In this document: piece by piece, positions 41,163-63,944 of the stretch
Layout of the letters: every line of letters starts with the position of its first letter
How positions within the stretch are numbered: the stretch's first letter is position 1
Assembly: GCA_027623295.1 (NCBI GenBank)
Contig: JAQBXR010000001.1
Location: 180,760 to 244,759, forward strand
Direction: 5' to 3'
DNA from: Planctomycetota bacterium
GTDB lineage: Bacteria > Planctomycetota > UBA1135
DNA: 64,000 nucleotides
Position numbers and translations under genes: made by a program
The notes under the pieces: generated by a model
Database searches by the model: none
What the model saw: only the letters and a program-made list of their open reading frames with translations
What the model was told of the DNA's origin: nothing

Positions 41163-42202
41163 AAACTTTTCGCCGGTTGTCTGCTCCCGGAAGCAGTGCC
41201 TTGTCGATTTGGCAGTTGTGTGCTGCGGAAAAGGAATGCACAAAACTTTTTGGCAGCGTTTTTCCGCAAACCCAAAACAGCTTTCGCTTAAATGGAGAAT
41301 CACTTCCATTTGATGAAGCCTTGTTGTGGCGTCGGGAAACAAAGGGGCAGAGCTTAACCCTCGAATGCCATTTGCATGGTGGCTATGGGGTTGCAGCGGC
41401 TTTTCGCGATTGGATGATGGAGCGCGGATGGCGTGAAGTGGCAGGTTCTCTTGCTGAAGAAAACCATCCTGCTTTATGGAATGCCAATTCGCCTCTTGCG
41501 GCGCGCGTCGTAGCGGCTCAGAGCGACAATGCTTTTGAGAAAGAGCTCCAGCGCATCCGCGATATGCCGGCCGCCGCGCAAAGAAACGCGGTGAAGGACC
41601 TGGCTCAATGGAATGCCTGGGCGAGCGCTCTCGAGCAACCACTCAGCATCGTATTCGCTGGTCCTCCCAACGTTGGTAAATCAACTTTGTTCAATCATTG
41701 GAATCGCGCGGCACTAGCCACGATTCATGATGGCCAGGGCACCACACGTGATGCCGTGGAAGTGACTCTCCAACTTGGTGCGCCGGGGGAGGAGGCCTTG
41801 TTTTCTCTGACCGATACCGCGGGCATCGGCGATGGGCTAAGTGCACTTGACCAACAAGCCATGTTGGTTGCATGGGAGCAAATTGACTCTGCATGGAAAG
41901 TCATCTGGGTTATCGACGCGGCTGCTGAACCGAGTGCTGCGGTTTTGAAACGGCTACAAAACCGCACAGCAAAGGATTTCATCCTGCTCAACCGCACCGA
42001 CCTAAAAGAGAGCTGGGTGCCATCGTCCTTAGGTATCGAGCCGGACTTGACCGGGCAAATAGCAGGGGTCGATGCTCTGCTGGTGGCGCTCGAAGCCAAG
42101 ATTTTGCAAATGCTTGGGCCACCGCCACCTCCAGGAACCTTGATCGCTTTCAAGAAATCTCAACGGGAAGCGCTCGAAGCCCTGCTCTCTGACCCCGTTT
42201 GA
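41159..42202 (+). CDS. Truncated/degenerate MnmE (TrmE)-like GTPase
   Basis: APGSSALSIWQL, LECHLHGG, FAGPPNVGKSTLFNHWN, QGTTRDAVE, LTDTAGIGDG, LLNRTD; no C-terminal CxGK motif. Confidence 0.75.
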   Translation: MKTFRRLSAPGSSALSIWQLCAAEKECTKLFGSVFPQTQNSFRLNGESLPFDEALLWRRETKGQSLTLECHLHGGYGVAAAFRDWMMERGWREVAGSLAEENHPALWNANSPLAARVVAAQSDNAFEKELQRIRDMPAAAQRNAVKDLAQWNAWASALEQPLSIVFAGPPNVGKSTLFNHWNRAALATIHDGQGTTRDAVEVTLQLGAPGEEALFSLTDTAGIGDGLSALDQQAMLVAWEQIDSAWKVIWVIDAAAEPSAAVLKRLQNRTAKDFILLNRTDLKESWVPSSLGIEPDLTGQIAGVDALLVALEAKILQMLGPPPPPGTLIAFKKSQREALEALLSDPV

Positions 42203-42215
42203 CGTTATCCTATAG

Positions 42216-43586
42216 TTGGAATCACTTGCCACTTCGGCCAGCATTCCACCCTCGTTGCTCAATCGCCCGATGCACCTCTTGCCGGTCATGGAAGGCCTCC
42301 ATTCTTCGGAGGCGCTGAACCCACCTTTCCTGCAAGCATTCTTTCAGCGCGTGAAGGAATTGGAAGCACGCCCTTCTGAGTTTGAAGACGCCTTGCACGG
42401 CACTGTGATTGCCACGATTTTCTCGGAGCCCTCCACGCGCACCCGCTTGTCCTTCGAAGCCGCAGCGCATCGGTTAGGCGCATCGGTGATCACCATGGCC
42501 GACTCCAAATCCTCGAGCGAAAGCAAGGGGGAAAGCTTGGTAGACATGGCGCGCGTGGTGGGAGGCTATGCCGATTTGATGGTGTTACGCCATCCATTAG
42601 ATGGTGCCTCACGTTTGGCGAGCCAGGCCACGACCACCCCAGTGATTAACGGTGGCGATGGCCGCCTTGGTCATCCTACGCAAACCTTAGTGGATCTTTA
42701 CATCTTGTATCGCGAGTGGGGGGATTTTGCTGGCCGTACGGTTGCCGTCATGGGTGACTTGCGCAATGGCCGAACCGCGCGCTCCTTGGCTTGGGCACTT
42801 GCGGTGTTGGGAGTGCGCATTGTTTTGCTCCCCGGGGTGGGGCTGGATTGGGAGGCTGGCTTTGAGCGCCGCATTCTTGACCGCTTCGATTACCGGCTGA
42901 GGTGGGGCAAGCATCCCTTATTCCGTGATTGGACTGGGAACGAGGAGGCGCGTGTTCTTGAACCCAAGGGTTTGGTCCAGAAATCTCTTTTCCGCGAAGA
43001 GGTCCCTGAAATTGATCGCCTCGATGCTTTGTACCTCACCCGCTTGCAGGCCGAGCGGGGAGCGCAGGCAGGCCCGGGTTCTTATCCAGGCCTCACTTCC
43101 GCCCAAATGCAGAATCCCTTGTTGGCCACCTGCAAGATCTTGCACCCGCTGCCTCGGCTCGATGAGCTTCCGTCGGAAATCGACACCGACCCGCGGGCTC
43201 TCTATTTCGAACAGGCAAAAGTGGGGCCTGTGGTTCGCCAGGCCGTGTTTTTAGCCATGCTACGCCAAGATCGCTGGTCGCTACCGCACCTGACTCCATT
43301 GCCAGCAGGAAGCCCAGATGTCCAGCTCGGCCTTTGCCCGAACTCGTCCTGCGTATCCCGCGCAGAGGGCCTTCCAGCTCCATGGCGTGTCGTGGGAGAT
43401 GCTCGTAGAACCTTCCTCTGCGCCTATTGCGACGGTCAATTACAAGTGGAGTACGCAGGATGCCGCTCGACGAACAAGGTTCACGCCTTGTTTTCTGGCG
43501 CTGCGTTTCGTATTAGCCCAGAAAATCTGCAGCCCTTTTTGGACCGTGACGCGGCCGAAAAAGCGGGCTATCAGTGGGGCGGTTAG
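42216..43586 (+). CDS. pyrB: Aspartate carbamoyltransferase with C-terminal PyrI-type zinc domain
   Basis: FSEPSTRTRLSFEAAAHRLGASVITM, SSSESKGESLVDMARVVGGYADLMVLRHP, GRLGHPTQTLVDLY, ILHPLPRLDE; then CPNSSC...CAYC. Confidence 0.93.
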   Translation: MESLATSASIPPSLLNRPMHLLPVMEGLHSSEALNPPFLQAFFQRVKELEARPSEFEDALHGTVIATIFSEPSTRTRLSFEAAAHRLGASVITMADSKSSSESKGESLVDMARVVGGYADLMVLRHPLDGASRLASQATTTPVINGGDGRLGHPTQTLVDLYILYREWGDFAGRTVAVMGDLRNGRTARSLAWALAVLGVRIVLLPGVGLDWEAGFERRILDRFDYRLRWGKHPLFRDWTGNEEARVLEPKGLVQKSLFREEVPEIDRLDALYLTRLQAERGAQAGPGSYPGLTSAQMQNPLLATCKILHPLPRLDELPSEIDTDPRALYFEQAKVGPVVRQAVFLAMLRQDRWSLPHLTPLPAGSPDVQLGLCPNSSCVSRAEGLPAPWRVVGDARRTFLCAYCDGQLQVEYAGCRSTNKVHALFSGAAFRISPENLQPFLDRDAAEKAGYQWGG

Positions 43587-43786: not shown

Positions 43787-46700
43787 ATGGAATCCGTGAA
43801 TCAACCGAAAAGGATGCGTCTCCTCACCCGAATCTCTGCCCTCGGGCTTTTGGCCGCCACCGTCGTTAGTGGAAGCTGTCTTTCTGCTTCGAACTCTGGT
43901 GGAGGTCTAGGAGGAAATACAAAAAGCTCCCTTGGCCTGTTCTTGGAGAACCTCACTTGGGGTCGCCTGGTGGATGTCCGCGACTCTAGCGGCATCCTGG
44001 TGGAGTCAGATGTACTCATCAACCACCTGATTGAGTCCGATGGCGTGAATTTTTCGATCACCAATAATCCGGTGAACCAGAAGGAAACGCTTACTATTTT
44101 GCGTACTGCAGGTTCGGCTTCCTTTATTGCTTTGTTAAGCACTGCGGAGTCCAACTTGGAGCCGATTGTAGATAAAGCTGCAACCTCTGCACCTCCGTTT
44201 ACCGAGCTTGCACGGAACGCCACGGTGCGCCTGCAGTTCTCAGAGCAGATTGATCCAAGCTCAGTGGACTTCACTACGGTGCAAGTCTTTACTGGCAACC
44301 CACCGTTGCTAGGTTTTACTGGCCGCTATATCGTGAAGAACGACGCTGGCCTGGACAAAGGCTTTGTCTTCTTCGATACCACCGTTTCCGCAACGGAAGC
44401 TGCTGCGGAGTTTATTCCACAGAACGCAGTGGGTTTGCCGGCATCTCCAGACTCGGTGAATGCGAACTTTGCGATTCGCATTCCGACTCAACCAGATCCG
44501 TTGATTGGACAGCCCAAAGTACTGCGCAGCCTAAACGGCAAGCTCACCCCGTCTGTGCAGGACTTGGCAACCGAGCCTTTCGAGACCACGGGTGTTTCAA
44601 ATACCTTGGTACGCGCAGCGCGTACCGGAAACAACCTAGATGACTTCAACGGTTTCCTGCTCGACAACACTCCGCCAAGCCTTTTGGCGGTTAAGAACGC
44701 CACGATTAACACGATCAGTTCTGTAACCGGCTCTGTGGTGGACTTTCTTTACACCATCGACCTCGCAGTTTGTAAGCCAATGACGCCAAAGGTCGGCGAC
44801 ATTTTCGAAGTTGGAGCAGGCTTGCTATTGGTGACCGATGTCTTGAATAGCGGAGACCCAAACAACTTCTCGGTTCGTGCAACTCTGGAAGCCGCAGAGG
44901 GCTCCATCGTTGCTGGTGCGACTTCCCTTTCTGCGCGTTACACCACGGCATACACCCCACAAGATGCTCTTGTTCAAGCGTGTTACTTGGAGTTCCAGCC
45001 TCCAATCGCTCAGCTCTCTGGTGCGGGCATTATTGACATTAGCGATGCGTCTTCTGTAACCATTCGCTTTGACGAGCCCATCAATACGGGCTCTATGCGT
45101 TCGATGAGCACCTTCGTAATCGTCAACCCAGATGCAGCGGCAGTGGGTGGCATTAACGAAGACGTTGAAATCGAGGCTGCCTGGTATCGCCAGGTGAACA
45201 CGAGTGAAACCACCGCCGACTTCATTGATCGTCAGCGTGGTTACGACTTCCGTGCGATTACCGCCGGAGCAGATGCTTTGTCTGAGTTCAGCGGTCGCCT
45301 GTGTTTTGGCCCAATCGAAGCCACTGACGGCAACCGTCAGTTCTCCCTCACGCCATCCTTTGGTTGGGTTTCGCCGAGTACTTCCGGCGCTGGTGAGGCT
45401 TACGTGGTCGCACTGCGAGGTGGAGTGACCGGCATCTTAGATCTGTCTGGCAACCCACTTGCTGTGGAAGGCTTCGTTGCTGGAAATGGTCAGGCTGGAG
45501 AGAGCAATGAGCAAGATGTAAAACTGGTTGTAAACCACGACACCTTTGGGAGCCTTGGAAACTACCTGTTCTGGAATGGAAACTCTTTGGACGAAAACGG
45601 TGACGGTCAAGCGGAATGGGCTGGCAACCTTCAGTTGATGCCCAATGGCCTCACTGGCCGATTCCCTTCGCGTTTCTCCCGTGCTGCAGACTCTTCCAGC
45701 CCGGCCATGTCCAATCGCTTGTTGGGTACCCCAGTAACCGAGCCACTAAACCCAGCCGGGGCAGTGGTCATGAGCGCCTTCCGTCCTCAAGAATTCGGTT
45801 TCTCTTATGGAGACGCAACCGAGTACAACATGACTGTGGAAGGATTTAACTGGTCACCAAACGCAGGTGTGGTTTTCGACGAGTCCTTCGAGGACATCTC
45901 ACTGTCTTTGTCGACGGCGGGGTTCTTGCCAGACGAGTTTCTGATTCCACCACCGAACCAAATCGTCATGTTTCCTGAATCCGGACTGACCATTTCCGGT
46001 TTCGATGACAACATTCTTGGGTTCACCCTAGATGGGTCTTCTGGAATCGATGAGATTGAAGTCTTCCGCAACAAATACGTTGCAAATGGAATCGAGTTGT
46101 TCACCAACAACGGCACGCCTTACATGCCATGGCCAGACTTCACTGCGAATTACGTTTGGCGCGATACCGCCATCCCGCAAACCTTCCTCGGTACGCATGT
46201 CAACTCTGCAGGTGCACCGAACCAGCAGTACGTCACCGATAACACCATCATCTTCGGCTGGGCACCAGAAGCCGCGCCATCAGTATCCTTGCCGCTTTTG
46301 GCTCGCTTCCGTGTTTTCCCACAGAGTAACCGTCTCGGCTTTAACAGCTTTTCGGTAACCCAAATGATTCCAAACCGGAGTCCAATGGTGAACTTCCGCA
46401 TTTGGTCTTCTGGCGGACAAGATGGATCAGGTATCTGGCACCAGATTCAACCAGATAACTCTGCGCTCGGTGGAACCCGTCCGATTGGCGGCTTCGTTCC
46501 AGGAACCGGTAACCGGACCGATCTCGTGGGCGACGATCACATCTACTGGACTCAGGCAGACTTCGTAGTCGACACCTCACGGATATATTCGCACTGGTTC
46601 GACCTCGGTTCAGTTTTGCTCTTGGAGCAAGTCTCCGGCGTAGTTGTGGAGCCAGCGAACGAAAGTCAGCCCGTTGGAACTTCCATCGTGGTTGAGTTCC

Positions 46701-46972
46701 GAGGTTCTGCCTTGGTGACTCATGGTGCTGACCCAGATGTGAATCCTTCACCTTTGACCAACGCGGATACTCAACTTGATGCCCACGGCGACTTTATTGG
46801 TGGCTTTGGTTCTGTAAGTACTCCCTCCCTGTGGACTACTGACCTCACGGAATTGGAAGGCAACGGCTTCCGTTACATCCAAGTTCGTGTCACTTTCAAA
46901 TCAAATGCAGATCTAGGTCTGCGCCCTGAGCTGGATAGCTTGGGAATCATCTGGAGCGATGTTCAGCCATGA
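43787..46972 (+). CDS. Giant secreted/lipoprotein-like Ig-domain protein, family A copy 1
   Basis: N-terminal hydrophobic signal ending SGSC; Ig-like VRLQFSEQIDPSSVDFTTVQVF and VTIRFDEPINTGSM; paralogous to the next ORF. Confidence 0.8.
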   Translation: MESVNQPKRMRLLTRISALGLLAATVVSGSCLSASNSGGGLGGNTKSSLGLFLENLTWGRLVDVRDSSGILVESDVLINHLIESDGVNFSITNNPVNQKETLTILRTAGSASFIALLSTAESNLEPIVDKAATSAPPFTELARNATVRLQFSEQIDPSSVDFTTVQVFTGNPPLLGFTGRYIVKNDAGLDKGFVFFDTTVSATEAAAEFIPQNAVGLPASPDSVNANFAIRIPTQPDPLIGQPKVLRSLNGKLTPSVQDLATEPFETTGVSNTLVRAARTGNNLDDFNGFLLDNTPPSLLAVKNATINTISSVTGSVVDFLYTIDLAVCKPMTPKVGDIFEVGAGLLLVTDVLNSGDPNNFSVRATLEAAEGSIVAGATSLSARYTTAYTPQDALVQACYLEFQPPIAQLSGAGIIDISDASSVTIRFDEPINTGSMRSMSTFVIVNPDAAAVGGINEDVEIEAAWYRQVNTSETTADFIDRQRGYDFRAITAGADALSEFSGRLCFGPIEATDGNRQFSLTPSFGWVSPSTSGAGEAYVVALRGGVTGILDLSGNPLAVEGFVAGNGQAGESNEQDVKLVVNHDTFGSLGNYLFWNGNSLDENGDGQAEWAGNLQLMPNGLTGRFPSRFSRAADSSSPAMSNRLLGTPVTEPLNPAGAVVMSAFRPQEFGFSYGDATEYNMTVEGFNWSPNAGVVFDESFEDISLSLSTAGFLPDEFLIPPPNQIVMFPESGLTISGFDDNILGFTLDGSSGIDEIEVFRNKYVANGIELFTNNGTPYMPWPDFTANYVWRDTAIPQTFLGTHVNSAGAPNQQYVTDNTIIFGWAPEAAPSVSLPLLARFRVFPQSNRLGFNSFSVTQMIPNRSPMVNFRIWSSGGQDGSGIWHQIQPDNSALGGTRPIGGFVPGTGNRTDLVGDDHIYWTQADFVVDTSRIYSHWFDLGSVLLLEQVSGVVVEPANESQPVGTSIVVEFRGSALVTHGADPDVNPSPLTNADTQLDAHGDFIGGFGSVSTPSLWTTDLTELEGNGFRYIQVRVTFKSNADLGLRPELDSLGIIWSDVQP

Positions 46973-49900
46973 TTCAATTTCCAACCTCAATTACGCGCTT
47001 TCTCGTCCTTGCGACTCTTGCGCTTCCAACCCTAACCCTTGCCAGTTGTGGAGCTGATGGGACTGGAATCGGTGCCGGCAACGGAACTGGTGCAGGATCC
47101 GGAAAGGCTTCTCTGGCTCTTGAAGATATGCAATGGGGCCGCCTGGTAAATGTCTTTGACCTTAGCGGTGACCTGGTGCAAACCGACGTCGTGATTCGCG
47201 AAAGCGTTCAGTCCGACGGCATTCGGTACACTCTTAGCCAAAACCCAATCACGCAGGTTGAAATCCTGACGGTATTGTTAACGCAAGGCACCCCAGCATT
47301 CGAAGAGGCTTTGGCCGACGCGCGTTCTGGATTGACTTCTCTGCAAGCTAAGAGTTTCGACTCGCCCGGCCCGTTTACTAAGCTTGCCCGAAATGGTGCA
47401 ATCCGTTTGGTCTTTTCTGAATTTTTGGACCCCACAAGCGTTGACCGTCAAACCATTCAAGTTTTGGTGGGCAGCAGCGAAGAAAGCCTTTCCTCTTTGG
47501 AAGTGCGCTATGTCGTGAAGGAAAGTGTAGGCCAGAATGGAGAACCCGTTGGGGTCGTGATTTTGGACCCAACTATTTCTAAAATCGATTCGCAACAACT
47601 GGGCATTCCAGAAAATGGTATTGGCTTTCCCGAATCTGAAGACCAGGTAACTCCGAACATTAAGTTGCGGATCCCAACCAAGCTTAATCCTTTTATCAAC
47701 CAGACTCTGTTGTTGACCAATAAGGCTAAGACGCAAACCTTCGATGTAAACCGCAATGCTGCAGGGGACTCGATTACCGAACCCCATGAGTTTGCAGGTT
47801 TAGATCCAGTTGCTGTCCGGGCAGTTCGCACGGGAAATAATCTTGATGCATTCAACGGCTTCTTATCTGACACCTCAAAGCCATCTTTGATTGTGACTCA
47901 GCCAGCCACCATTGCCTCGGTGACCGAGGTGGGGCAGCAACGGAATCTTGTTTACGCAATGGACGTGCTTAGCTGCCGTCCAATGAGTCCAAAGGTGGGT
48001 GACGTATTTGAAGTGAGTGGGTCTTTGGTTCAGATTACTTCAGTCATCGATTCCTCTGACAACACCGCCTATGTAGTCCAAGGTGTTCTGCTGGCAGGTA
48101 CCCTTCCGGGAGGCAGCATCGGCGTTGCCGCGAACCTGACCACGCGTTATTCGGTGGCAGACGCCGCCGTGCAGTTGTGTTTCCTGACCATCACGCCACA
48201 ACCAACGAGGAATTTCCCGGCAGATGGAGTCGACCCCTTTGCCACAATTTCGGTGCGCTTTAGCGAGCCGATCGATGTGACGACTGTACGCTCTCTTGAT
48301 TCCATGGTTCTTTCGTCTGCTGACACTGGTGCAGCTTCTGACGATAACAACCGGGAGTGGGATTTGGCGTCCGGCGAAACGATCCCCGACTTCCTTGACC
48401 GCATTCCAGGCTTTGGATCTGGCGGAGGACCGGGTCGCATCATGTTTGGGCCATTACAAGCCTCGGGAGATGCTCAGGCCTTTACCCTCGCACCTTTGGC
48501 TGGCATTACCGATGCCTTTGGAGAAAGTGGGGCACTTCAGGTTTCGTTGGCCTTGCGAAACGGCCCCACCGGCATCCTTGACCTCGCCGGAAACGTGGTT
48601 GACTTTTCCAGTTTCGTTGCAGGACACTCTTCTCAGACTGGAGTGCAAATTTCCATGGCCTCGGGGCCCGTCCCAACCGACAAGTACTTTGCTCTACGTG
48701 GAAACGGAGTTGATGAAGATGGTGACCAAGCTCCAGAATATGCAGGTCAACTTGGCCCGATTGAAGGTGACGGAGTTTTGCGTGGTCGCGGGATCATTCG
48801 CTTTTCGCGTCAAGCTGACCAGACCAACCAGTTTGTTGGTCAGCGCCTGAAGTTCACTACGGGTCTCATGACGCCTCTTACACCCGCCGGTGCCGTACTC
48901 ATGACCTGTTACGGTTATCACCAGCTTGGGTTCGGCCTTTCTAGTGTGAGTGAGTTCAACCTCGACGTGGAGGGACTCAACTGGTCTCCATTTGATGGTG
49001 TGGTTGTCGATGATACTTTCGATCGCTACTCCGTCGCCTTGGCACACTCCAACCGCTTCCCAGACGATTTCATTAATGCTGGTTCGGGTTATCCACAGCA
49101 CCAGAACTCTGGCTTGAGGCGTTTGTCTGGAAATATCTTTGACGCCAACATTTACGGTTTTGGTCAAGACCCTGTGCTCTACGCGGACCTCGATGAAGTC
49201 ATCATGTTCGACACGAACTATGAGCTTTCTCTTGTGAACCGTTTTCAAACGCCTGGTGGCATTACCATGTACCCATGGCCAGATTTCGACACTACCTACA
49301 CTTGGCGCGACACTCACTTCCCACTGCCCAATGGCGGTACTTTAGAAGGCGGTAACTCAGTGGGCTCCGGGCCGACCAACCCAGGTGGCTATGGCGTACC
49401 ACCTTCCGTGGTTGGCGGAATTCCAACCTGGTTGAACGGTGATTATCCAAGCATTGCTTTGCCACTGCTTATGCGCTTCCGTTCTTACCCACGTGGCCAA
49501 GAGTTTGGCTTCAACGGCTTTCAAGTTCAAATCATGGTGGGCTCGTCCAATATTCCGGCCTTCCGCGTGTTCTCCTCGGGAGGGCGTGAGGCTGGTGGTA
49601 ATTGGAAATTGGTGCGCCCTGACCTTCCACCAGAAGGTACCGCGCCTAACGGTGGCTTCAACACCGTCACGGGAGTTGCCACCAATGGCTTTGGTCCTGA
49701 GCTCTACTGGGGGCAAGTTGACTTTGTCACCAAGGTGAGCAAGGTTTACACCCACTGGTTCGACTTTGGAGCAGACCTTGAAGGCATGTCTTCCCTGATC
49801 ATTGAGCCGACTGCGGCTCAAGCTAGTCCAGGAACCTCAGTGGAAGTACAGTTCCGTTCCACCGCCACGATGAACGACGCAGGTTGTGTCGGTTCTTCCC

Positions 49901-50115
49901 CTTTAAACGACGCAAGTTCATTCTTCGATGCCTACGGTGAATACGAAGGAACTTGTGCAACTCTTTCGAGCCCGTCTGATTGGTATTCCGACCCAGCCAA
50001 GCTCATCGATGATGGCCGCCAGTTCTTTCAGCTACGGTTCACTTTTGTGTCAAACATCGAGCAGGACCTGCTCGCTGAGCTTGACGCCTTTGGTTTCGCT
50101 TACACCACTCAATGA
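46969..50115 (+). CDS. Giant lipoprotein, Ig-domain, family A copy 2
   Basis: Lipobox LASC (ATLALPTLTLASCGADG); IRLVFSEFLDPTSVDRQTIQVLVG; shared VRAVRTGNNLDAFNGFL, CRPMSPKVGDVFEV with copy 1. Confidence 0.85.
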   Translation: MIQFPTSITRFLVLATLALPTLTLASCGADGTGIGAGNGTGAGSGKASLALEDMQWGRLVNVFDLSGDLVQTDVVIRESVQSDGIRYTLSQNPITQVEILTVLLTQGTPAFEEALADARSGLTSLQAKSFDSPGPFTKLARNGAIRLVFSEFLDPTSVDRQTIQVLVGSSEESLSSLEVRYVVKESVGQNGEPVGVVILDPTISKIDSQQLGIPENGIGFPESEDQVTPNIKLRIPTKLNPFINQTLLLTNKAKTQTFDVNRNAAGDSITEPHEFAGLDPVAVRAVRTGNNLDAFNGFLSDTSKPSLIVTQPATIASVTEVGQQRNLVYAMDVLSCRPMSPKVGDVFEVSGSLVQITSVIDSSDNTAYVVQGVLLAGTLPGGSIGVAANLTTRYSVADAAVQLCFLTITPQPTRNFPADGVDPFATISVRFSEPIDVTTVRSLDSMVLSSADTGAASDDNNREWDLASGETIPDFLDRIPGFGSGGGPGRIMFGPLQASGDAQAFTLAPLAGITDAFGESGALQVSLALRNGPTGILDLAGNVVDFSSFVAGHSSQTGVQISMASGPVPTDKYFALRGNGVDEDGDQAPEYAGQLGPIEGDGVLRGRGIIRFSRQADQTNQFVGQRLKFTTGLMTPLTPAGAVLMTCYGYHQLGFGLSSVSEFNLDVEGLNWSPFDGVVVDDTFDRYSVALAHSNRFPDDFINAGSGYPQHQNSGLRRLSGNIFDANIYGFGQDPVLYADLDEVIMFDTNYELSLVNRFQTPGGITMYPWPDFDTTYTWRDTHFPLPNGGTLEGGNSVGSGPTNPGGYGVPPSVVGGIPTWLNGDYPSIALPLLMRFRSYPRGQEFGFNGFQVQIMVGSSNIPAFRVFSSGGREAGGNWKLVRPDLPPEGTAPNGGFNTVTGVATNGFGPELYWGQVDFVTKVSKVYTHWFDFGADLEGMSSLIIEPTAAQASPGTSVEVQFRSTATMNDAGCVGSSPLNDASSFFDAYGEYEGTCATLSSPSDWYSDPAKLIDDGRQFFQLRFTFVSNIEQDLLAELDAFGFAYTTQ

Positions 50116-53100
50116 TGTCTCAAATCAAATCATCCCTGTTGCGTAGTGCCTTTGTTATCGGCGCAACACTGCTTCCCCTTTTTGTCGTCGGCTGTAAGAG
50201 TTCAGAAGCGTCCATTGGTCGCTTTGAGGTCTTAACCTCCAACGTCAGCACTGGGGATACATGGTTGCTTAACCGTCCCATTCAGCTCTTCTTCAACAAT
50301 GCGATTGATCCGAACTCGGTGAACTTCGCATCGGTGATTTTGCGCCCGACGGACCAAGCTAACTCTGGAAACCCTGTTACGGGTACCTTTGACCTAATCA
50401 CCGATGCCGAAGGCAACAAAAACTTCGGGATCCAATTCAACCCAGCCTGTCCAGACAACGTTGACAATAGTAACGGTGGCTTTATCCCTGGAAACTTTGG
50501 TTACGAATTAGTCCTTCCAACCGTAGGTGCCGGTGGGGCCGCTATTTTGCGCGACACTGCTGGCAACCAGTTGGCGATTGGGCTGACGCGTACCTTCCGT
50601 ACGCCTTCGGTGGGTGAATCCTTGTTTGCCGACACCATCGTGGGTCCTCCGCGTTTGGATTCTTTGGTGGTGCCGGACAGCCTTGGTCTGATTTCTCAGA
50701 ACGATTCCAATATCATTTTGAGCTTCAACCAGTCGGTGAACCCGGAGCCGATCAACCTTGCTCCAAATCGTATTTTCGTTCAATACTCAAATGCTGTTGG
50801 TGCTTTCCCTTTAAGCGGAAACATCATCCCTGGCGCTTTGTCGATTGTGAGTAACTGTGGCGATGGTGCCGTTTTGCATTTCGCCGTCAGCGGCGTGATG
50901 ATTCCAGGGCGCGACATTCGTGTGGTTCTCACATCCAACTTTGAAGATCTTGGTGGTAATACCAACTCTAGCTCGGTAGCGAGTGCGGCAGTTTCAGTTC
51001 CCACCATCGCTGAGTTTTATGCTGATGGTCCGTCTATCAATGAAGACGATGTCACCTTCGACGAGTATGCAGATTATTTTGCCAACTCCAATCGTCTCGA
51101 CCTCGATGCAAACTTGTCACAGCCTCCAGCTGCGGTTTCTTCTGGTTTTATTCAGGCTGATTTTCCCTTTCCGGGAACCCCAGTTGGAGTAAATCGCAAC
51201 TTCGTGGTCACTACCGGACAAGGTCTTATGCAGGTGGATACTTCTTCCACCACCCAAGTGACAGATGGCAATGGCAAGGTTTTCGATGTCGTGAATGGTG
51301 TTCTGAATGTGCACGACTTCAGGATTGAGGCCGGCGCAACTTTGCGTGCTTTGGGTAGCAACCCCTTGGTGGTCTATGTTTCTGGCGAGGCCATTTTGCT
51401 TGGCACCTTGGACGCAAGTGGCTTCAACGCTTCGGCCCCAGATGGTGCCGTGAACGCATGGGAACTTTCCGTACCCGGCGCCTTTGGCGTTTGTGGTGGC
51501 GGCAACGGCGGTGCCTCATCTCAGATCATTGATAATTTCACTGCACGTGGTGAATCGGGCCAGGGGGCCTTTGGGGTTGCTCTTGGTGGCGGTCAAGGTG
51601 GAGAAGGCGGATACCAACAGGACCGCGCTCCAGCCTTGAGTGGAACTTTAGTGGATTCTGCTTCCCTCATCGCCGGAGGTGGTGCAGGTGGCGGATTCAG
51701 TGAAGGACGTACGGACTCGATTTTTTGGGATCGTTGGAGTTTGTTGGAAAACCCCAACACCTTTGATAATGCTGGTCCAGACCTTCGTGCTGACCGCCAC
51801 ACTATTTACAACGCAACGATTGATCCGGACACTGCCTTTTTGGGCGCTGAGGACGGATTGCGTGGTAGTGCTTTGGGCAATCAAATCGATCCAGCCGATC
51901 AAACAAGGATCGTTTCCCATGGTGTAGAAGGCTTCGAAGATCGTGCTCAAGACGGGCTTGATGGAACCGATTTTGATGCCGGAGGATTTGACCTGGCAGA
52001 AACTGGCGGAACCATTGGATTCCCATTCGGCAACCCAAGCCTTGGCCCAGATGGTGGTCTTGCTGGCCGTTCCATCTTTAATGATGCCGACGTCAGCAAT
52101 AACTTTTGGGGTCACCGCTTCGTTTGGGACGGCACTCCTGGAGTGGCACCCATCTTGACAACTGGTGAATTGAGTGCTCCAGCGGCTGGTTCCGGTGGCG
52201 GAGGAAGTGGAGACATGCAAACCATCTTCCGCTTCGACCTCGATTTTGACACCTACCCAGACACCGTGAACATGTTGTTCCCTGACCCGAACTTCACCGG
52301 TGGTGGTTATACCGCACGTTACTTCCGCGGCGCTTCTGGCGGTGGTGGTGGTGGCCAAGTTCAATTGATGTGTCTCGGTCCAATCACCTTGGGTCCCGCA
52401 GCGATTCTCAAGGTCAATGGTGGCGCCGGCAACGGTGGTGACTCAACCGCAGACGGTGGTGCATTTGCCACGACTTCTCAGGTCTCCGGATCGGGTGGTG
52501 GGTCTGGTGGTCATCTTGTCATGCACTCTGCATCGGGACTGAATCTCAGTCTCATCGATGTAGGTACTGCGGGCGACCCTGGAGTTCCTGCGACCTTCTT
52601 TGACTCCATTAACAACGCACACTCCATTCAAGCGATTGGTGGACGTCGCGGCTGGGCTGCGAGTCGTTTGCCGGTAGACGTTGGCTTCAGTGGGGAAGGC
52701 AACAGAGATGGCAACAGCTCCTTCATGGTGGGCCGCGGTGGTGCCGGTGCGAGTGGTTTGATTCAAATCCACGTGCCTAACCCGCTCACGGACATTACCT
52801 ATCACACCTCAGTGGACGCTGCCTTTAAGCAATACATCACCGATGAAGATCTTACCAACCCGGTGATTTCGGATCGTCAAGATGAAGTGCTTGGTGTTTA
52901 CGCCATTCCGGTTCCATTTACTTTGGTTCCTTTCTTCTCGCCAGAGTCTCAAGTGCAAAGCGTATGGGTGGACACTGGTTTGGCAGAACTGCGTAACCCA
53001 GCAAACGGAACTGGACCCTTCCCTGACTTCCTCGATGCGACCCTCGGGTTCGAAGGCATCGATCAAGCTACAGGGATGGTGCTAACTGGTGCTAACTTAG

Positions 53101-53678
53101 TGACGCCTGGTTCGATTGCTGGCTCAGACGCTGGTGCTGGCTCTGCAAGCTTCACCAACTTCACGGTGACCATTAGCAATCCATCGGCATCTTTTGGGGC
53201 AGATCTTCTGCGCAACCCAAACTTGCTTAACGGCTACGACATGGTTCCAGATGCCACGCAAGTGACTCCACAAACTTTCGAGATTGTGGATGCGGTTTAC
53301 ACTGCAAGCCCAGAGACTCTGGTGCTTACGACGCGCGTGTCGGATGGTCCGATGGCTTTGATTGCTTCTACCAATTGGGTTGTGCGGACGAAGTTCTTCC
53401 GTATTTCCACCACGGAAACGAAGGATCGTCTGCCTTCTTCGGCAAGTGTTCGCATTCAGTTCCAGGGCACGGAAGAAACCACACCAGGTTCCAACACCCC
53501 AGACTTGACTGCAATCACTGACTGGACAGGTGATGGAGTCACCACCATGAGTGATCTTCAAGGCAAGCGCTTTATTCGCTACCGCCTCACCTTTGACATC
53601 GACGCGCTGGATTCCGGCCCGACGGTAGATAAGGAGAAGCCAGGTGCTCAATACCTCAAGTTCCCTTGGAGTTGGTAG
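50112..53678 (+). CDS. Giant glycine-rich lipoprotein, family B copy 1
   Basis: Lipobox VVGC (LPLFVVGCKSSEAS); Ig-like IQLFFNNAIDPNSVNFASVIL; Gly-rich GGGGGGQVQLMCLGPITLGPAAILKVNGGAGNGG. Confidence 0.85.
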   Translation: MMSQIKSSLLRSAFVIGATLLPLFVVGCKSSEASIGRFEVLTSNVSTGDTWLLNRPIQLFFNNAIDPNSVNFASVILRPTDQANSGNPVTGTFDLITDAEGNKNFGIQFNPACPDNVDNSNGGFIPGNFGYELVLPTVGAGGAAILRDTAGNQLAIGLTRTFRTPSVGESLFADTIVGPPRLDSLVVPDSLGLISQNDSNIILSFNQSVNPEPINLAPNRIFVQYSNAVGAFPLSGNIIPGALSIVSNCGDGAVLHFAVSGVMIPGRDIRVVLTSNFEDLGGNTNSSSVASAAVSVPTIAEFYADGPSINEDDVTFDEYADYFANSNRLDLDANLSQPPAAVSSGFIQADFPFPGTPVGVNRNFVVTTGQGLMQVDTSSTTQVTDGNGKVFDVVNGVLNVHDFRIEAGATLRALGSNPLVVYVSGEAILLGTLDASGFNASAPDGAVNAWELSVPGAFGVCGGGNGGASSQIIDNFTARGESGQGAFGVALGGGQGGEGGYQQDRAPALSGTLVDSASLIAGGGAGGGFSEGRTDSIFWDRWSLLENPNTFDNAGPDLRADRHTIYNATIDPDTAFLGAEDGLRGSALGNQIDPADQTRIVSHGVEGFEDRAQDGLDGTDFDAGGFDLAETGGTIGFPFGNPSLGPDGGLAGRSIFNDADVSNNFWGHRFVWDGTPGVAPILTTGELSAPAAGSGGGGSGDMQTIFRFDLDFDTYPDTVNMLFPDPNFTGGGYTARYFRGASGGGGGGQVQLMCLGPITLGPAAILKVNGGAGNGGDSTADGGAFATTSQVSGSGGGSGGHLVMHSASGLNLSLIDVGTAGDPGVPATFFDSINNAHSIQAIGGRRGWAASRLPVDVGFSGEGNRDGNSSFMVGRGGAGASGLIQIHVPNPLTDITYHTSVDAAFKQYITDEDLTNPVISDRQDEVLGVYAIPVPFTLVPFFSPESQVQSVWVDTGLAELRNPANGTGPFPDFLDATLGFEGIDQATGMVLTGANLVTPGSIAGSDAGAGSASFTNFTVTISNPSASFGADLLRNPNLLNGYDMVPDATQVTPQTFEIVDAVYTASPETLVLTTRVSDGPMALIASTNWVVRTKFFRISTTETKDRLPSSASVRIQFQGTEETTPGSNTPDLTAITDWTGDGVTTMSDLQGKRFIRYRLTFDIDALDSGPTVDKEKPGAQYLKFPWSW

Positions 53679-53694
53679 AGCGGTTCCATTAACG

Positions 53695-53734
53695 AAACCC
53701 CTCGTCATCTTTGGATGGCGAGGGGTTTTCCTTT
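53695..53734 (+). terminator. Rho-independent terminator ending the giant lipoprotein operon
   Basis: AAACCCCTCGTCATC-tttg-GATGGCGAGGGGTTTT. Confidence 0.9.
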
Positions 53735-53755: not shown

Positions 53756-54580
53756 ATGGACAAGTCAGGCGTCATGCATCTGCCGCAATCCGCTTCACAG
53801 TTTTTATGGGTGTTGCGGGTGGTCTTGGTATTGCTGGCAAGTTGCAGCGCTGAGGAGAAATCCATACCTCTGGAATTGGTTTCCTGGACCGGAAATGATC
53901 AACAACCGGTGGCGTTAGATGAAGTCCTGAAGATTGAGTTCAATCAGGCCTTGGCCAAACCGGTTCGGGCAAGTTCTCTGCAGCTTGTCGACGAAGGAAA
54001 CCATCCGGTTGAGAACGTGACAGCTACCGTGGTGGGAAGGTGGTTGTACCTCACGCCTGCATTGCCGAAACGGGTGGACTTAGAAGACGGCAGCCTGAAA
54101 CCCGGACAAAGCTATGGGATTCTTTTACACGGCCTGCCATGGCTGCGAGCTCTCGCCTCTGCCGACGGGCAGTTGTTGCAGAAAGATTTGGTGTTGCGCT
54201 TCGTAACCGCCAGTGCCGCATCTCCAGGCGCTCTTGCGGGACGGGGGGTCGAGTCTTCTGGCTTAAGGTTGGACCGTCCTGGAGGCCCTGAACCCTTAAC
54301 CTTCCGTGGTGAGGAGCGGGTCATCCTTCTGTTTACCCGAGGAATTGATCCGCGTTCCATCGCCCAGCCAGCTCGATGGTTGGCCCAAGGTCAGCAAGAG
54401 GCCGTAGAGGTCACCCTCCGCCTGGTAGAGAACCAAATCGATGGCGCCAAGCTCGAGGTCCTGTTGCCCGAGTGGCGAGGCTCAGGTGCTTTAGAACTGC
54501 CGCCTGGTGTGGAAGGTCTCGGCGGTTGGCCATTGCCGGAATCCGACCGCATCCTGCATCTGATCCGACGCGCGCAATAA
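53756..54580 (+). CDS. Ig-like (SbsA/Big_5-type) lipoprotein
   Basis: Lipobox LASC (VVLVLLASCSAEE); LDEVLKIEFNQALAKPVRASSLQLVD; GEERVILLFTRGIDPRSI. Confidence 0.75.
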   Translation: MDKSGVMHLPQSASQFLWVLRVVLVLLASCSAEEKSIPLELVSWTGNDQQPVALDEVLKIEFNQALAKPVRASSLQLVDEGNHPVENVTATVVGRWLYLTPALPKRVDLEDGSLKPGQSYGILLHGLPWLRALASADGQLLQKDLVLRFVTASAASPGALAGRGVESSGLRLDRPGGPEPLTFRGEERVILLFTRGIDPRSIAQPARWLAQGQQEAVEVTLRLVENQIDGAKLEVLLPEWRGSGALELPPGVEGLGGWPLPESDRILHLIRRAQ

Positions 54581-54624: not shown

Positions 54625-55620
54625 ATGAGCTGGTTTGAAATCCTGCAACAGGAGAGTCCTGGTCTTTACACGACATTTTTGATCGTGTGTGGAGCCATGG
54701 CTGGCTCCTTCGCCTCCGCAGCGATTTTCCGCATACCTCAAGAAGGGATGTCGATTGCAAGCCCGGCACGGTCGCATTGTCCCTGCTGTAAAGCCCAAAT
54801 TCGCTGGCACGACAACCTTCCGGTCGTCGGCTACCTGCTCCTGCGGGGACGCTGTAGAGACTGTAAAGCTAGATTTGGCCCGGGGTACCTCATCCACGAA
54901 GTTGGTTTGGCCTATTTGTTCTACCTCGCGGGCCATACTTGGCTTGCTGATCCAAGCCTAGGTGGAGGCCCAACGGCTCTAGGATTCGCCTTCGTTGCCC
55001 TCACCGGATTGTGGATTGCCATGGCGGTTGATTTCCGCCATTTCATCCTGCCCGATGGCATCACACTCGGTGGAATTCCATTTGGATTATTGGCTGCCTG
55101 GATGGTCCCGTCCTTCCACATCTGGCCGGGTCTTGGCACCATGCCGCTGGGCCTCGATTGGTTCGGAATTTCGCCGGATTTGCCGCCAAATCAACTCGCG
55201 CTCATTTCAGGAATCCTTAGTTCCCTTATTTCTTTCGGGTTCTTGTTTGGAATTGGTCGTCTGTTTTCTTATCTTCTACGGCAGGAAGCACTGGGCTTTG
55301 GCGACGTCAAGTACATCGCCGCTGTCGGTGCCTTCCTCGGCCTCGAGGGCTCCGTTTGGACTCTCGCTGTCGGCGTCTTTGCGGGCGCAGTGCTGGGCGT
55401 GGTGAACGTCGTGCGCATGATTTTGGTGGTTCGCCACCGACGTCAGACGCAGGGAAAGAGTCACACCTACTCACATTCGTTCGCACATGTCGGCTGGCTG
55501 GCTGGGCGGACCATTCCGTTCGGTCCGCCGTTGATTTTGGGGACCATCCTAGTTTTGATGGCTCCCGCATCCGTACACCAGTTCTTCCTTGAGACCTGGC
55601 CCCAGATCCTAAACGGTTAG
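54625..55620 (+). CDS. Prepilin peptidase (type IV leader peptidase, A24)
   Basis: GSFASAAIFRIP; CPCCKAQIRWHDNLPVVGYLLLRGRCRDCKARFGPGYLIHE; DFRHFILPDGITLGG; ALGFGDVKYIAAVGAFLG. Confidence 0.95.
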   Translation: MSWFEILQQESPGLYTTFLIVCGAMAGSFASAAIFRIPQEGMSIASPARSHCPCCKAQIRWHDNLPVVGYLLLRGRCRDCKARFGPGYLIHEVGLAYLFYLAGHTWLADPSLGGGPTALGFAFVALTGLWIAMAVDFRHFILPDGITLGGIPFGLLAAWMVPSFHIWPGLGTMPLGLDWFGISPDLPPNQLALISGILSSLISFGFLFGIGRLFSYLLRQEALGFGDVKYIAAVGAFLGLEGSVWTLAVGVFAGAVLGVVNVVRMILVVRHRRQTQGKSHTYSHSFAHVGWLAGRTIPFGPPLILGTILVLMAPASVHQFFLETWPQILNG

Positions 55621-55637: not shown

Positions 55638-56327
55638 ATGAAGAAATCCGCACTTCTCATCGCCCTTCTCGCTTTGTCCGCACCATCTTGTCAAAGCCCA
55701 ATGCATCGTCAGATGCTTGACGACCAGGACCAGCAGCTCGCTGCTTTCAAAACCGACGCTGATAATCTGCGTTCTGAGCGTGACCGTATGCGCGCAGAAA
55801 ACGCAGCGCTTTCCGATCAGCTGAACTACGAACAACAGCGTGCTTTAGAAATCCAAGATCGCTTGACTGCACGTGAAGCTGCCTTCCAGCAGCAGAATGC
55901 CGAAGTCACTGACCTTCAGGCCCGCCTGGCAGGTTCTGGCGTAGAAGTCGAGTCCCGCGGAGGCTTCATTGTTCTCGGCATGGATTCCAATCTGACTTTT
56001 AATTCCGGAAAAGCTGAGCTCAATATAAAGGGCAAGTCCACCATGGATCTCGTCGCTGGGGTTCTCATGGAAAGCTATTCCGGAAAAACGTTCTGGGTAG
56101 AAGGTCACACCGATTCGGATCAGCCGAAGAAGTCTGGCTGGAAGAGCAACCTCGCTCTCTCTGTAAACCGTGCCCTCTCTGTTGCGGATTACCTCGTGTT
56201 CGATAAGGGCATTGAGTCGCAGTTCGTTCGCATCGCTGGTCACGGCGAATGGGATCCTAAGGAAGAAAACTCCACCAAAGAAGGTAAGGCTAAGAACCGC
56301 CGGGTCGAAATCCTGGTCCTTCCTTAA
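55638..56327 (+). CDS. OmpA-family peptidoglycan-binding lipoprotein
   Basis: Lipoprotein-like signal ALSAPSC; coiled coil; NLTFNSGKAELNIKG...FWVEGHTDSDQPKK...LSVNRALSVADYLV...RIAGHGEWDP...NRRVEILVLP. Confidence 0.9.
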   Translation: MKKSALLIALLALSAPSCQSPMHRQMLDDQDQQLAAFKTDADNLRSERDRMRAENAALSDQLNYEQQRALEIQDRLTAREAAFQQQNAEVTDLQARLAGSGVEVESRGGFIVLGMDSNLTFNSGKAELNIKGKSTMDLVAGVLMESYSGKTFWVEGHTDSDQPKKSGWKSNLALSVNRALSVADYLVFDKGIESQFVRIAGHGEWDPKEENSTKEGKAKNRRVEILVLP

Positions 56328-56363: not shown

Positions 56364-56406
56364 AAGGCATCGAGCGATTCGTCGCTCGGTGCCTTCTTTT
56401 TTTTCT
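56364..56406 (+). terminator. Rho-independent terminator after OmpA-like gene
   Basis: AAGGCATCGAGCGA-ttcg-TCGCTCGGTGCCTT then C(T)9. Confidence 0.92.
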
Positions 56407-56427
56407 TTCTCAATCCAAAATAATCCC

Positions 56428-60679: not shown

Positions 60680-60800
60680 GGTTCCTTTTCTCTGTTCGAT
60701 GTAAGTCTGTGTGTGCATGGTGTTTAGTTTGTTAAACTTTGCCGACAGCAATCCTCGAGAGCCATCCCGAGGACCTCTAGGCCGCCCCGACTTGGTCATT

Positions 60801-63800
60801 GTGAAGATACTCCCTTCCCTAAGCAAAATTCTTGCCACATCCTGCCTTCTTGCCATTTTCACGGCATGTGGCAGCTCCTCCGACAGCGCCGCTACCGTCG
60901 CTGAGTTTGGATTGTCCGTTTGTTCGCTCGGTTGCAATGGAAGCTCGTTTTCCACCAGCACCCATGCCGCGAACCAGGACATTACTTTCACGTTTAACGA
61001 TGTGGTGGATCCTTCAACAGTGAACTTCTCGTCGATATCCATTGTCGATAAAGCTACTGGAGTCTTTCCAACGGGTAGCTTTATTGTGAATGGTAAGGTG
61101 GTCGTTTTCCAACCATCGTTGAGTCAGACGGATGCCGGAACCCTGTTCGGATTCTTGACCGATGCGACCTATCGCGTACAGATTCTTGACGACGCAAGTT
61201 CCAATGCAGTTGCTGCCGTTTCGGGTCGCCTAAATCAAACTTTCATTACTGGCGATATCACCATTATCGAGCCGGTGGACTTAGTGCCTGGGTCCCCTTC
61301 CTTGATCGAGATTTCGCCGGACCCAGAAGCGGTTCCGACCACGCGCGATTTCCCCATCGTTTTGACTTTCGGCGACCTTATGAACACGCTGCAGATGGCG
61401 AACCCTCAAACTGGGGAAAGCACTCAGATTTCGATTGTGGTGGTCGATACCGCAGCTGGAACCGAGATCGCCATGCCGGGTTTCTTTGTCGCTGAATTGA
61501 ATCGTTCGACTTTGCTTACCACGGTTACTTTCACTCCTTCGGTCCCGTACCCGGGCAGCAAGGGCGGTTCGCGCTTTTTGCGTTTGAGTGTGTCACAACA
61601 GATCTCGGATTTTGGCGGTAACCTGCTTTCTAACCCAGGCTCTACCAATTTCGCTCTTCCTAACATCCTTCAGCAGCCTGGCACTTTAAAGGAAGCCTTC
61701 GCCGATGGCGGGCAGGAAGACAGCATGGGAAGCACCGCATCTCTCTGGGCTGCCAGCGCAGGCAACTTGAATAGCGGATTCGACCCGGTAACCAAACTTC
61801 ACCGTGGTGGTGGTTCTGGAATCCTCGGTTCCTATGTTGCGGACTCAGGTCTGCAGACCTTGAACACGAACGGTGACCTGAATTTCCCTTCGGAGTTGTT
61901 GGGCGAAGACGTCGGCGTGCTGGGCGGCTTTTATCCTTTCACTGAGGTGCAGATTCTCAGCGGCTCGCGCATAGAGGCCATCGGTGCAAACCCATTGCGT
62001 CTGTTTAGCCAAGGCCGCATTTTGGTCGACGGCGTAGTCGACATTGCAGGTGCTTCCGCTCCTTCTCACACCGGTAAGGTGTTTGCGACGAACGAATGGG
62101 AGAACGATACCCTTGGTCTGATTACGGAATCTCCTCTTGGACGTCTCATCGATCCCTTCGGCGGCGATGACTTTGCGCTCGGTGGATTTGGCGCAGCAGG
62201 TAACCTCGGTGCTGGTGATGGGGGATCCGGTGGAAAAGCCTGGTATCACCTCGGCATTGAGTTTCTCGTTGGCGATCTTTACCTCCGCGGTGAGCAAGCC
62301 AACTGGTTTAACGGTGTCTCCGCTGGATTCAATCCAGCCAAATCCCGTTTCCCTGGCGGCTTCGGCGGCGGCGTCGGTGAGGATGTAGACGTCTACTGTG
62401 GTTCGAATGCAGGCGGCGTGGGTGGTATTGCTCCGGTCGGCAAACCGTCGACAGGTTCAGGTGCTAACCAGCACATCGACCAGGACAACGGTTCCGGAAT
62501 GGGCTCTTGGTGTTGGCCTCCGATTGCCAACCAAGTGACTGATAGCACCTTCTCTAACGGTGTCACCATCACTACGCACCCAACGGCCTTTGCCGGTGGT
62601 TCCCCAACCGCTTTTGGTGGCTTTTCGATTCACCGTTCGCGCGGCGGCGGCGGCGGCGGTTACTGGACCAGCGGCGCACGCGGGATCCACTTCGATGCAA
62701 CCAGCACTGATCCATTGGGTCTTCCTTTGCTTGTCCCTGTCATCGATGAAGATGACGCCATCTTCGAGTTCAACAGCACCGAACTTGGCGACGATCGCCT
62801 GCTTTGGGATTCCCGCCTCGGTGGCGGAGCAAGTTTGCCTGATGCCGATGGTGGCCGTTATGTCATCCCTGCAAACACCGAAACCCTCAACCCTGAGCTA
62901 GGTCTCTTGCTTGGCGGCTCTGGTGGCGGTGGTGCCGGCATGAGTGAGCACGGTTCGATTGAGGACCGCTTTGGAGTCTTCGCAGATGGCGATGTAGGCA
63001 CCTACCGCAACAACCCCGGTGGCGGTGGCGGAGCTGGCGGTGGCGCAGCCCAACTGCACGCTGGATCCAGCTTGAGCATCAACGGAGAGATCAATGCTCC
63101 TGGTGGCCATGGAGCAACCAGCGAGTTTATGGCTTCCGTTCCCTTTGCCGACATCGACGCGATTGACTTCGGCCCTCCTGGAGATGCAGGTGGTGGTGGT
63201 GGATCCGGCGGTTCCATTTTGCTGCAAGGTGGCAGCTTGGTGCAGGCTTCCCTTGATGCAGTCAATGTAAACGGTGGTGACGGTGGCCTTGGTGCTGCTG
63301 GTAACCACGGTGGCGATGGCGGCAGTGGCCTAGTGCGGGTCGAAACCGCGACCGGCACGGAATCCCTTTCTATTTTGGAAGGAATGGTGACTCCAAACGA
63401 AGCGGTGGAACTGACTCCGATTGGTTTGGCCGGTCAAGCCAACATTGGCACCATTGCAGTCTCTATGCCAGGCATCCTTGGCGATGTCACTGCTGGCGAT
63501 GGCACCGTCTTTAACGGCAACGCAAGTGGTGTGCGGTCGCGCTGGTATGAGCCTTCCGCAGGGGTGCAAAACATTGTGGTTACGGGATGGCAAATCGAAG
63601 TGGAGTACTCCATCGATGGCGGTGTCACTCCTCTGACCTTGAGTTTTAGTGACACCTCGCCCACCGACCCGGACACCACCGAAATTTGGATTGCTCTACA
63701 AGGTGGATGGATGGCTTCTGGTCAATCCACTGCAGAAAGTCCAGTCTTGGTCACCACCACGGCATGGGTTATCCCAAGCGTGAATGGTGCGACCGACGGT

Positions 63801-63944
63801 CTTCTGGAAATAAACGGTGCCATCAACCGTGCAATGCGTTTCATGATCGTGTTTGACCACGATGCGATTGACACCTTGTTGCCCGATGCTCCTGGAAACT
63901 ACTTCCGCGTCACGGACGTGAACGTAGATTTCCTCGGCGATTGA
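60801..63944 (+). CDS. Giant glycine-rich lipoprotein, family B copy 2
   Basis: Lipobox FTAC (LLAIFTACGSSSDS); Ig-like ITFTFNDVVDPSTVNFSSISIV; GSRIEAIGANPLRLFSQGRILVDGVVDIAGAS parallels 50112 ORF GATLRALGSNPLVVYVSGEAILLGTLDASG; GTG start 60801 chosen (ORF opens at 60711). Confidence 0.82.
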   Translation: MKILPSLSKILATSCLLAIFTACGSSSDSAATVAEFGLSVCSLGCNGSSFSTSTHAANQDITFTFNDVVDPSTVNFSSISIVDKATGVFPTGSFIVNGKVVVFQPSLSQTDAGTLFGFLTDATYRVQILDDASSNAVAAVSGRLNQTFITGDITIIEPVDLVPGSPSLIEISPDPEAVPTTRDFPIVLTFGDLMNTLQMANPQTGESTQISIVVVDTAAGTEIAMPGFFVAELNRSTLLTTVTFTPSVPYPGSKGGSRFLRLSVSQQISDFGGNLLSNPGSTNFALPNILQQPGTLKEAFADGGQEDSMGSTASLWAASAGNLNSGFDPVTKLHRGGGSGILGSYVADSGLQTLNTNGDLNFPSELLGEDVGVLGGFYPFTEVQILSGSRIEAIGANPLRLFSQGRILVDGVVDIAGASAPSHTGKVFATNEWENDTLGLITESPLGRLIDPFGGDDFALGGFGAAGNLGAGDGGSGGKAWYHLGIEFLVGDLYLRGEQANWFNGVSAGFNPAKSRFPGGFGGGVGEDVDVYCGSNAGGVGGIAPVGKPSTGSGANQHIDQDNGSGMGSWCWPPIANQVTDSTFSNGVTITTHPTAFAGGSPTAFGGFSIHRSRGGGGGGYWTSGARGIHFDATSTDPLGLPLLVPVIDEDDAIFEFNSTELGDDRLLWDSRLGGGASLPDADGGRYVIPANTETLNPELGLLLGGSGGGGAGMSEHGSIEDRFGVFADGDVGTYRNNPGGGGGAGGGAAQLHAGSSLSINGEINAPGGHGATSEFMASVPFADIDAIDFGPPGDAGGGGGSGGSILLQGGSLVQASLDAVNVNGGDGGLGAAGNHGGDGGSGLVRVETATGTESLSILEGMVTPNEAVELTPIGLAGQANIGTIAVSMPGILGDVTAGDGTVFNGNASGVRSRWYEPSAGVQNIVVTGWQIEVEYSIDGGVTPLTLSFSDTSPTDPDTTEIWIALQGGWMASGQSTAESPVLVTTTAWVIPSVNGATDGLLEINGAINRAMRFMIVFDHDAIDTLLPDAPGNYFRVTDVNVDFLGD

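Follow-up and report, generated by a model that had tools for sequence, protein, structure and literature searches.

A conserved operon of large Ig-domain lipoproteins, probably an undescribed surface component, in an order of planctomycetes

The A1-A2-B operon

A 64,000-nt stretch of DNA from a Planctomycetota bacterium (GTDB lineage UBA1135; GenBank assembly GCA_027623295.1, contig JAQBXR010000001.1, positions 180,760 to 244,759), here called the window, was found to carry three successive large open reading frames (ORFs), designated A1, A2 and B (Table 1), the products of which are probably a cell-surface component not previously described. The A1/A2 junction is an ATGA overlap at 46969-46972, with the sequence ...CCATGATT..., and the A2/B junction is a second ATGA overlap at 50112-50115, with the sequence ...CAATGATG.... 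The A1 frame is open upstream to 43697, and 43787 was preferred as the start because it gives a better signal peptide. In the same-genus genome G003 (L056, 4862-8432), B is broken into two overlapping ORFs by a frameshift or an assembly error.

The operon is closed by a rho-independent terminator, and the 80-nt stretch around its hairpin folds with -35.5 kcal/mol (z = -5.5; none of 200 shuffled sequences was equally good). Strong hairpins of differing sequence, mostly with T-rich tails, lie directly 3' of B in most same-family relatives, and the same comparison found no hairpin between pyrB, the gene preceding A1, and A1 itself; thus the end of the A1-A2-B transcription unit is conserved. Promoter-like sites 5' of A1 did not exceed the number in shuffled sequence, and transcription read-through from pyrB into A1 is possible. 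The ORFs, their overlaps and the terminator had been reported in a preliminary description of this DNA, and all were confirmed, whereas its suggestion that a complex is produced stoichiometrically gained no direct support. ATGA coupling leaves the ratios free, and the overlaps were rejected as proof of fixed stoichiometry because the spacing of the operon genes, tight in the window's family, varies among families, with gaps of up to ~220 nt.

Table 1 Positions of features at the A1-A2-B locus, numbered from the first letter of the window.
Feature	Position	Strand	Basis
A1, 1061-aa lipoprotein, first A-type paralogue	43787..46972	+	ORF, Pfam, family tree
A1 putative lipobox cysteine, Cys31 (SGSC)	43877..43879	+	Column is Cys in A1 orthologues
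A2, 1048-aa lipoprotein, second A-type paralogue	46969..50115	+	ORF, alignment, AlphaFold model
A2 putative lipobox cysteine, Cys27	47047..47049	+	Nearly invariant column
A2 N-terminal domain with W-G-R-L-V-D-V motif	47110..47358 (borders approximate)	+	Alignment of 70 A proteins
A2 Ig-like (Big_5) domain 1	47350..47868 (approximate)	+	Pfam Big_5 at equivalent place in A1; profile match to B Ig1
A2 Ig-like (Big_5) domain 2	48166..48693 (approximate)	+	Residues 415-454 score as Pfam Big_5; profile match to B Ig1
A2 acidic D-x-D-x-D-Q-x-x-E loop, putative Ca2+ site	48712..48738	+	Family-wide pattern at this column
A2 C-terminal module common to B and D	49819..50106	+	hhalign probability 95.7 to B 1105-1186
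B, 1188-aa glycine-rich lipoprotein	50112..53678	+	ORF, alignment, AlphaFold model
B putative lipobox cysteine, Cys28	50193..50195	+	Unchanged in all 44 B proteins
B Ig-like domains 1 and 2	50214..51041	+	Profile match to A Ig domains; Foldseek matches to LdtMt2/LdtMt5 and SbsC
B middle, beta-rich short-strand segment with glycine-rich insertions	51039..52751	+	DSSP of model, composition, many invariant Gly
B C-terminal module common to A	53424..53672	+	Profile-profile comparison
Rho-independent terminator closing A1-A2-B	53694-53729	+	16 pairs, U-rich tail
C, 274-aa lipoprotein with Ig-like N-terminus	53756..54580	+	Matches B profile; usually between B and pilD
pilD, sole prepilin peptidase match in the genome, conserved neighbour	54625..55620	+	Profile match, locus comparison
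ompA, OmpA-type peptidoglycan-binding lipoprotein, conserved neighbour	55638..56327	+	Domain match, locus comparison
D, glycine-rich lipoprotein of divergent B type, carrying the common C-terminal module	60711..63944	+	True start probably ~60795-60801

The encoded proteins and their relatives in the genome

A1 and A2 are 36% identical across 1079 aligned columns and form separate clades in the family tree, with Shimodaira-Hasegawa-like approximate likelihood ratio test supports of 100 and 98; their duplication is old within the window's family, and other families duplicated A independently. A1, A2 and B carry a lipoprotein signal made up of a hydrophobic stretch and a conserved lipobox cysteine, and lipidation is predicted. 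Nearly all A proteins have the cysteine in one and the same alignment column. The A1 orthologues in which the N-terminus is covered are among them, and the weak SGSC lipobox of A1 is supported because its relatives keep the cysteine there.

Scans with Pfam and NCBIfam detected no family besides Big_5 (PF13205) in the three proteins. Big_5 scored 25.2 bits in A1 and 25.1 bits in A2, above the Pfam cut-off of 23.6, and 21.2 bits in B, just under it. Profiles of segments, drawn from 70 A sequences and 44 B sequences, were compared with each other, and the two immunoglobulin-like (Ig) domains of A matched those of B with a probability of up to 95.9. By the same approach, A residues 950-1045 matched B residues 1105-1186 (probability 95.7), defining a common C-terminal module. 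Tandem paralogy of the first two proteins, export signals, Ig repeats in all three and a common C-terminal end had all been recognised before, and each was upheld. The remainder of A (the WGRLVDV domain and the half from ~590 onwards) and the glycine-rich middle of B, with 18-26% Gly in its later part, match no Pfam or NCBIfam family.

The C-terminal module is detectable in only five proteins of the genome, A1, A2, B, B2 and D, and is therefore not a general sorting signal; a role as a general secretion signal was rejected on the same count. In a type IX-type sorting system, by contrast, the same C-terminal domain is carried by many unrelated secreted proteins. A stand-alone copy of the A2 module, 111 residues long, occurs between an MnmE-like gene and pyrB in genome G004 of the same genus (L057, 14719-15051). 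C, which is ~600-700 aa long in other families, and the B-like D had been left unlinked in the preliminary description and belong to the same set as A1-A2-B. B2 is a further glycine-rich B-type protein (43% identity to B) encoded alone on another contig; a second A-B operon around it was rejected, the neighbours being methylmalonyl-CoA mutase, PrmA and others. Tandem stand-alone B2 genes with no A gene nearby were seen in relatives (L092, 6864-14041; L093, 6244-13413).

AlphaFold models, made with proteins of the window and of related loci, were obtained with high confidence for A2 (predicted local distance difference test, pLDDT, 91; predicted template modelling score, pTM, 0.84) and B (pLDDT 82; pTM 0.73). 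Foldseek against the PDB returned no whole-chain match to either; what it gave for both were Ig-fold pieces, among them SbsC, mycobacterial L,D-transpeptidase (LDT) Ig domains and antibodies. PDB profile searches gave no match to A, and for B chance-level, low-complexity matches to the glycine regions of Obg and one weak match (E 0.007), to a putative efflux transporter, all treated as uninformative. The matches of B in a viral fold library were limited to Ig-like pieces and to phage proteins rich in glycine, all with low template modelling (TM) scores. No catalytic domain was found in A1, A2 or B by Pfam, NCBIfam and PDB searches.

An acidic loop, D-x-[DN]-x-D-[GQS]-x-x-E, is present at A2 residue 582 in all 29 A proteins of the window's family and is mostly non-canonical in those of other families, so that Ca2+ binding is put forward for this family only. 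All three have an acidic pI (4.2-4.4) and little lysine. Their codon adaptation index (CAI), a proxy for abundance, is moderate (0.70 for A1, 0.67 for A2 and 0.70 for B, against ~0.75 for ribosomal proteins) and does not support very high expression.

Conservation and gene neighbourhood

A was found in 60 and B in all of the 61 genomes sampled from the order, presumably GTDB lineage UBA1135, including genomes of 2 Mb. The system is strongly conserved, and a lack of conservation of the trio in relatives, on which the preliminary description would have failed, is not seen. The strict A-A-B order, the conservation of which had also been raised in the preliminary description, holds in the window's family but not elsewhere, where A(1-4)-B and sometimes A-B-A occur; A-B is therefore likely to be the ancestral unit. 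Among 75 loci from GTDB genomes, A is followed directly by B in 51 and pyrB directly by A in 39, many of the remaining loci being short contigs or stand-alone A genes. The gene order in the sampled order is pyrB-A(1-4)-B-C-pilD-ompA; C, pilD and ompA usually come next after B in loci long enough to show them. Named records with the locus are Planctomycetota and include the metagenome-assembled genome UBA1135 as well as Saltatorellus ferox Poly30 and Pla86, which we take to belong to the Saltatorellus clade. Among 297 genomes sampled across the phylum, full-length A was strong only in those of this order. Outside it, family f49 has divergent A-B pairs in the same coaX-mnmE-A-B-pilD setting (A profile E ~1e-22 to 1e-31), the two genes overlapping or nearly touching in most loci. 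One f11 genome also has pyrB-A-A-B.

The position of pilD, present downstream in almost all loci of sufficient length, together with a pseudopilin-like gene nearby and several PilB/GspE ATPases encoded elsewhere in the genome, would fit a role of A and B in type II secretion or in a type IV pilus. Neither protein has a pilus or type II secretion domain, the terminator separates B from C, and the ATPase genes of such systems lie on other contigs; this is the least probable of the explanations considered. The second conserved neighbour, the OmpA-type lipoprotein, is a neighbour in nearly all well-covered loci and carries a peptidoglycan-binding domain. Lipoproteins stay on the inner leaflet by default, and A and B might accordingly face inward and act with this neighbour as a periplasmic scaffold joining outer membrane and cell wall. 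Such an arrangement is considered unlikely: no peptidoglycan-binding domain was found in the 1000-1200-aa Ig and glycine-rich A and B proteins, and an acidic pI and low lysine content are more usual for exposed proteins.

Other neighbours of the operon were also noted. An aspartate carbamoyltransferase of 456 aa (42216-43586) has a Cys-rich C-terminus weakly resembling the zinc domain of the regulatory subunit (E 0.06), and is possibly a fusion of catalytic and zinc domains. A short MnmE-like GTPase (41108-42202, 364 aa; 76 bits against an NCBIfam cut-off of 380) is conserved at the locus, and a second EF-G-type GTPase (56389-58410), besides that at 10535-12607, is a conserved member of the neighbourhood.

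The ratio of nonsynonymous to synonymous substitution rates (dN/dS) for A and B was 0.06-0.19 in the four fairly close pairs that allowed its computation and ~0.3-0.4 in one more distant pair, similar to that of housekeeping neighbours. Given this low dN/dS and the full-length orthologues, A and B are real, constrained genes. The main rival to a joint structural role is that A and B are separate surface adhesins or matrix proteins by which cells hold on to particles or to one another, the operon reflecting co-regulation and not a complex. An Ig and glycine-rich architecture is common in adhesins, A has been duplicated in single lineages to up to four copies, and stand-alone A and B paralogues exist. 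Near-universal presence, housekeeping-like purifying selection and a fixed locus nevertheless speak for a core role in the envelope rather than for a variable adhesin, and we regard separate adhesins as somewhat unlikely, though the strongest of the alternatives.

A proposed surface coat and its comparison with known systems

It is proposed that A1, A2 and B have a structural role as lipoproteins of the outer membrane, forming a mixed acidic coat or lattice of Ig domains on the cell surface, a reading to which we give a probability of about 0.45. Counted in its favour were the conserved cysteine, the lack of anything catalytic, the SbsC-type matches, acidity, the near-universal presence of A and B, the tight operon with its terminator after B, low dN/dS, the restricted C-terminal module and the OmpA-type neighbour. 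The proteins would be exported by Sec, lipidated at the conserved cysteine and anchored by the lipid in the outer membrane. A would provide a rigid core of two Ig domains followed by a large, family-specific, beta-rich C-terminal half, and B its Ig domains with a glycine-rich array of short beta strands, giving a mixed coat in which rods of Ig domains, anchored by lipid, have one of two types of middle. The common C-terminal module would be the likely docking part for both, and in the window's family the conserved acidic loop may confer stabilisation by Ca2+. The gene order, the tight co-directional operon, the lipoprotein signals, the relationships of the domains, the deep conservation and the purifying selection are shown directly. 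The evidence for a structural surface complex is thus of two kinds only, architectural and evolutionary, from which we infer outer-membrane and surface location, co-assembly, a lattice, stoichiometry, Ca2+ use and abundance.

Several points weigh against a coat. The moderate CAI does not indicate an extremely abundant coat protein, and the conservation of A and B exceeds what would be expected of a typical phage-exposed surface protein. Stand-alone A genes in other families and the stand-alone B2 mean that the two are not obligate partners, and surface exposure of a lipoprotein is not readable from sequence here.

More doubtful than the coat itself is a wider proposal, that A-B is a core envelope system, a lipid-anchored multi-component coat with two unrelated middles and a shared docking module, which would take over some of the cell wall's mechanical role in a deep planctomycete lineage that includes the Saltatorellus clade. 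Members of this clade are shape-shifting, with unusually large changes of cell shape (PMC11481906, PMC11032199); the link to A and B is an association by lineage only.

To our knowledge, the surface proteins of non-anammox planctomycetes are almost unknown. Nearly all sampled members of one order of planctomycetes from oceans and fresh water have the A-B set, always at a fixed locus, and sequenced strains such as Poly30 and Pla86 carry it, so that the make-up of their outer surface is directly testable. No description of this gene set was found in the papers searched. The known planctomycete S-layers are those of anammox Kustd1514 and its homologues (PMC5088730, PMC7482068). An unassigned layer is reported for Kolteria (PMC12288469), and a 2025 paper gives its own isolate as the sole non-anammox planctomycete with such a structure (PMC12288469).

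As in the preliminary description, which recognised no described system, domain, PDB profile and Foldseek searches assigned A and B to no characterised one. Proteins with Big_5 share with A and B a domain that spans only a fraction of each protein, most of A and B being outside any family. The best Foldseek matches of B were the BIg domains of LdtMt2/LdtMt5 (probability 1.00), at whole-chain TM scores of 0.1-0.3 and with no catalytic domain found in B; the matches of both A2 and B appear to fall on the Ig domains.

Polymer capture had also been suggested, and a complex for polymers or nutrients comparable to SusCD-like systems was considered, since large multidomain lipoproteins with beta-rich domains, putatively at the surface, could bind a ligand. 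SusCD systems pair a SusC-type TonB receptor with a SusD-type lipoprotein, whereas the proteins scanned at the A/B locus include no TonB-dependent receptor, SusD or carbohydrate-active enzyme and give no carbohydrate-binding Pfam match. This role has no direct support and is judged very unlikely.

Two kinds of known surface layer come closest to the coat proposed here. Anammox Kustd1514 and Brosi_A1236 (PMC5088730, PMC7482068) are likewise large beta-rich surface proteins of the same phylum. By description, not sequence, they differ in that Kustd1514 is one protein, with a C-terminus of disordered repeats (PMC7482068), whereas A and B are operon lipoproteins, and Kustd1514 homologues are reported among anammox bacteria only (PMC12288469, PMC7482068). 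SbsC was among the best non-antibody Foldseek matches to A2 and B, at whole-chain TM scores of no more than 0.13 for most SbsC entries; other weak non-antibody matches also included Ig-built surface proteins. Neither PDB profiles nor Foldseek related A or B, over most of its length, to any characterised S-layer protein. In contrast to SbsC/SbsA, A1, A2 and B are three different lipid-anchored proteins with family-specific C-terminal halves and no overall structural match, no SLH or cell-wall-binding domain was found in them, and their lattice is only proposed. What they share with the SbsC/SbsA S-layer proteins is the plan of a large, exported, acidic protein built of chains of Ig-like domains.

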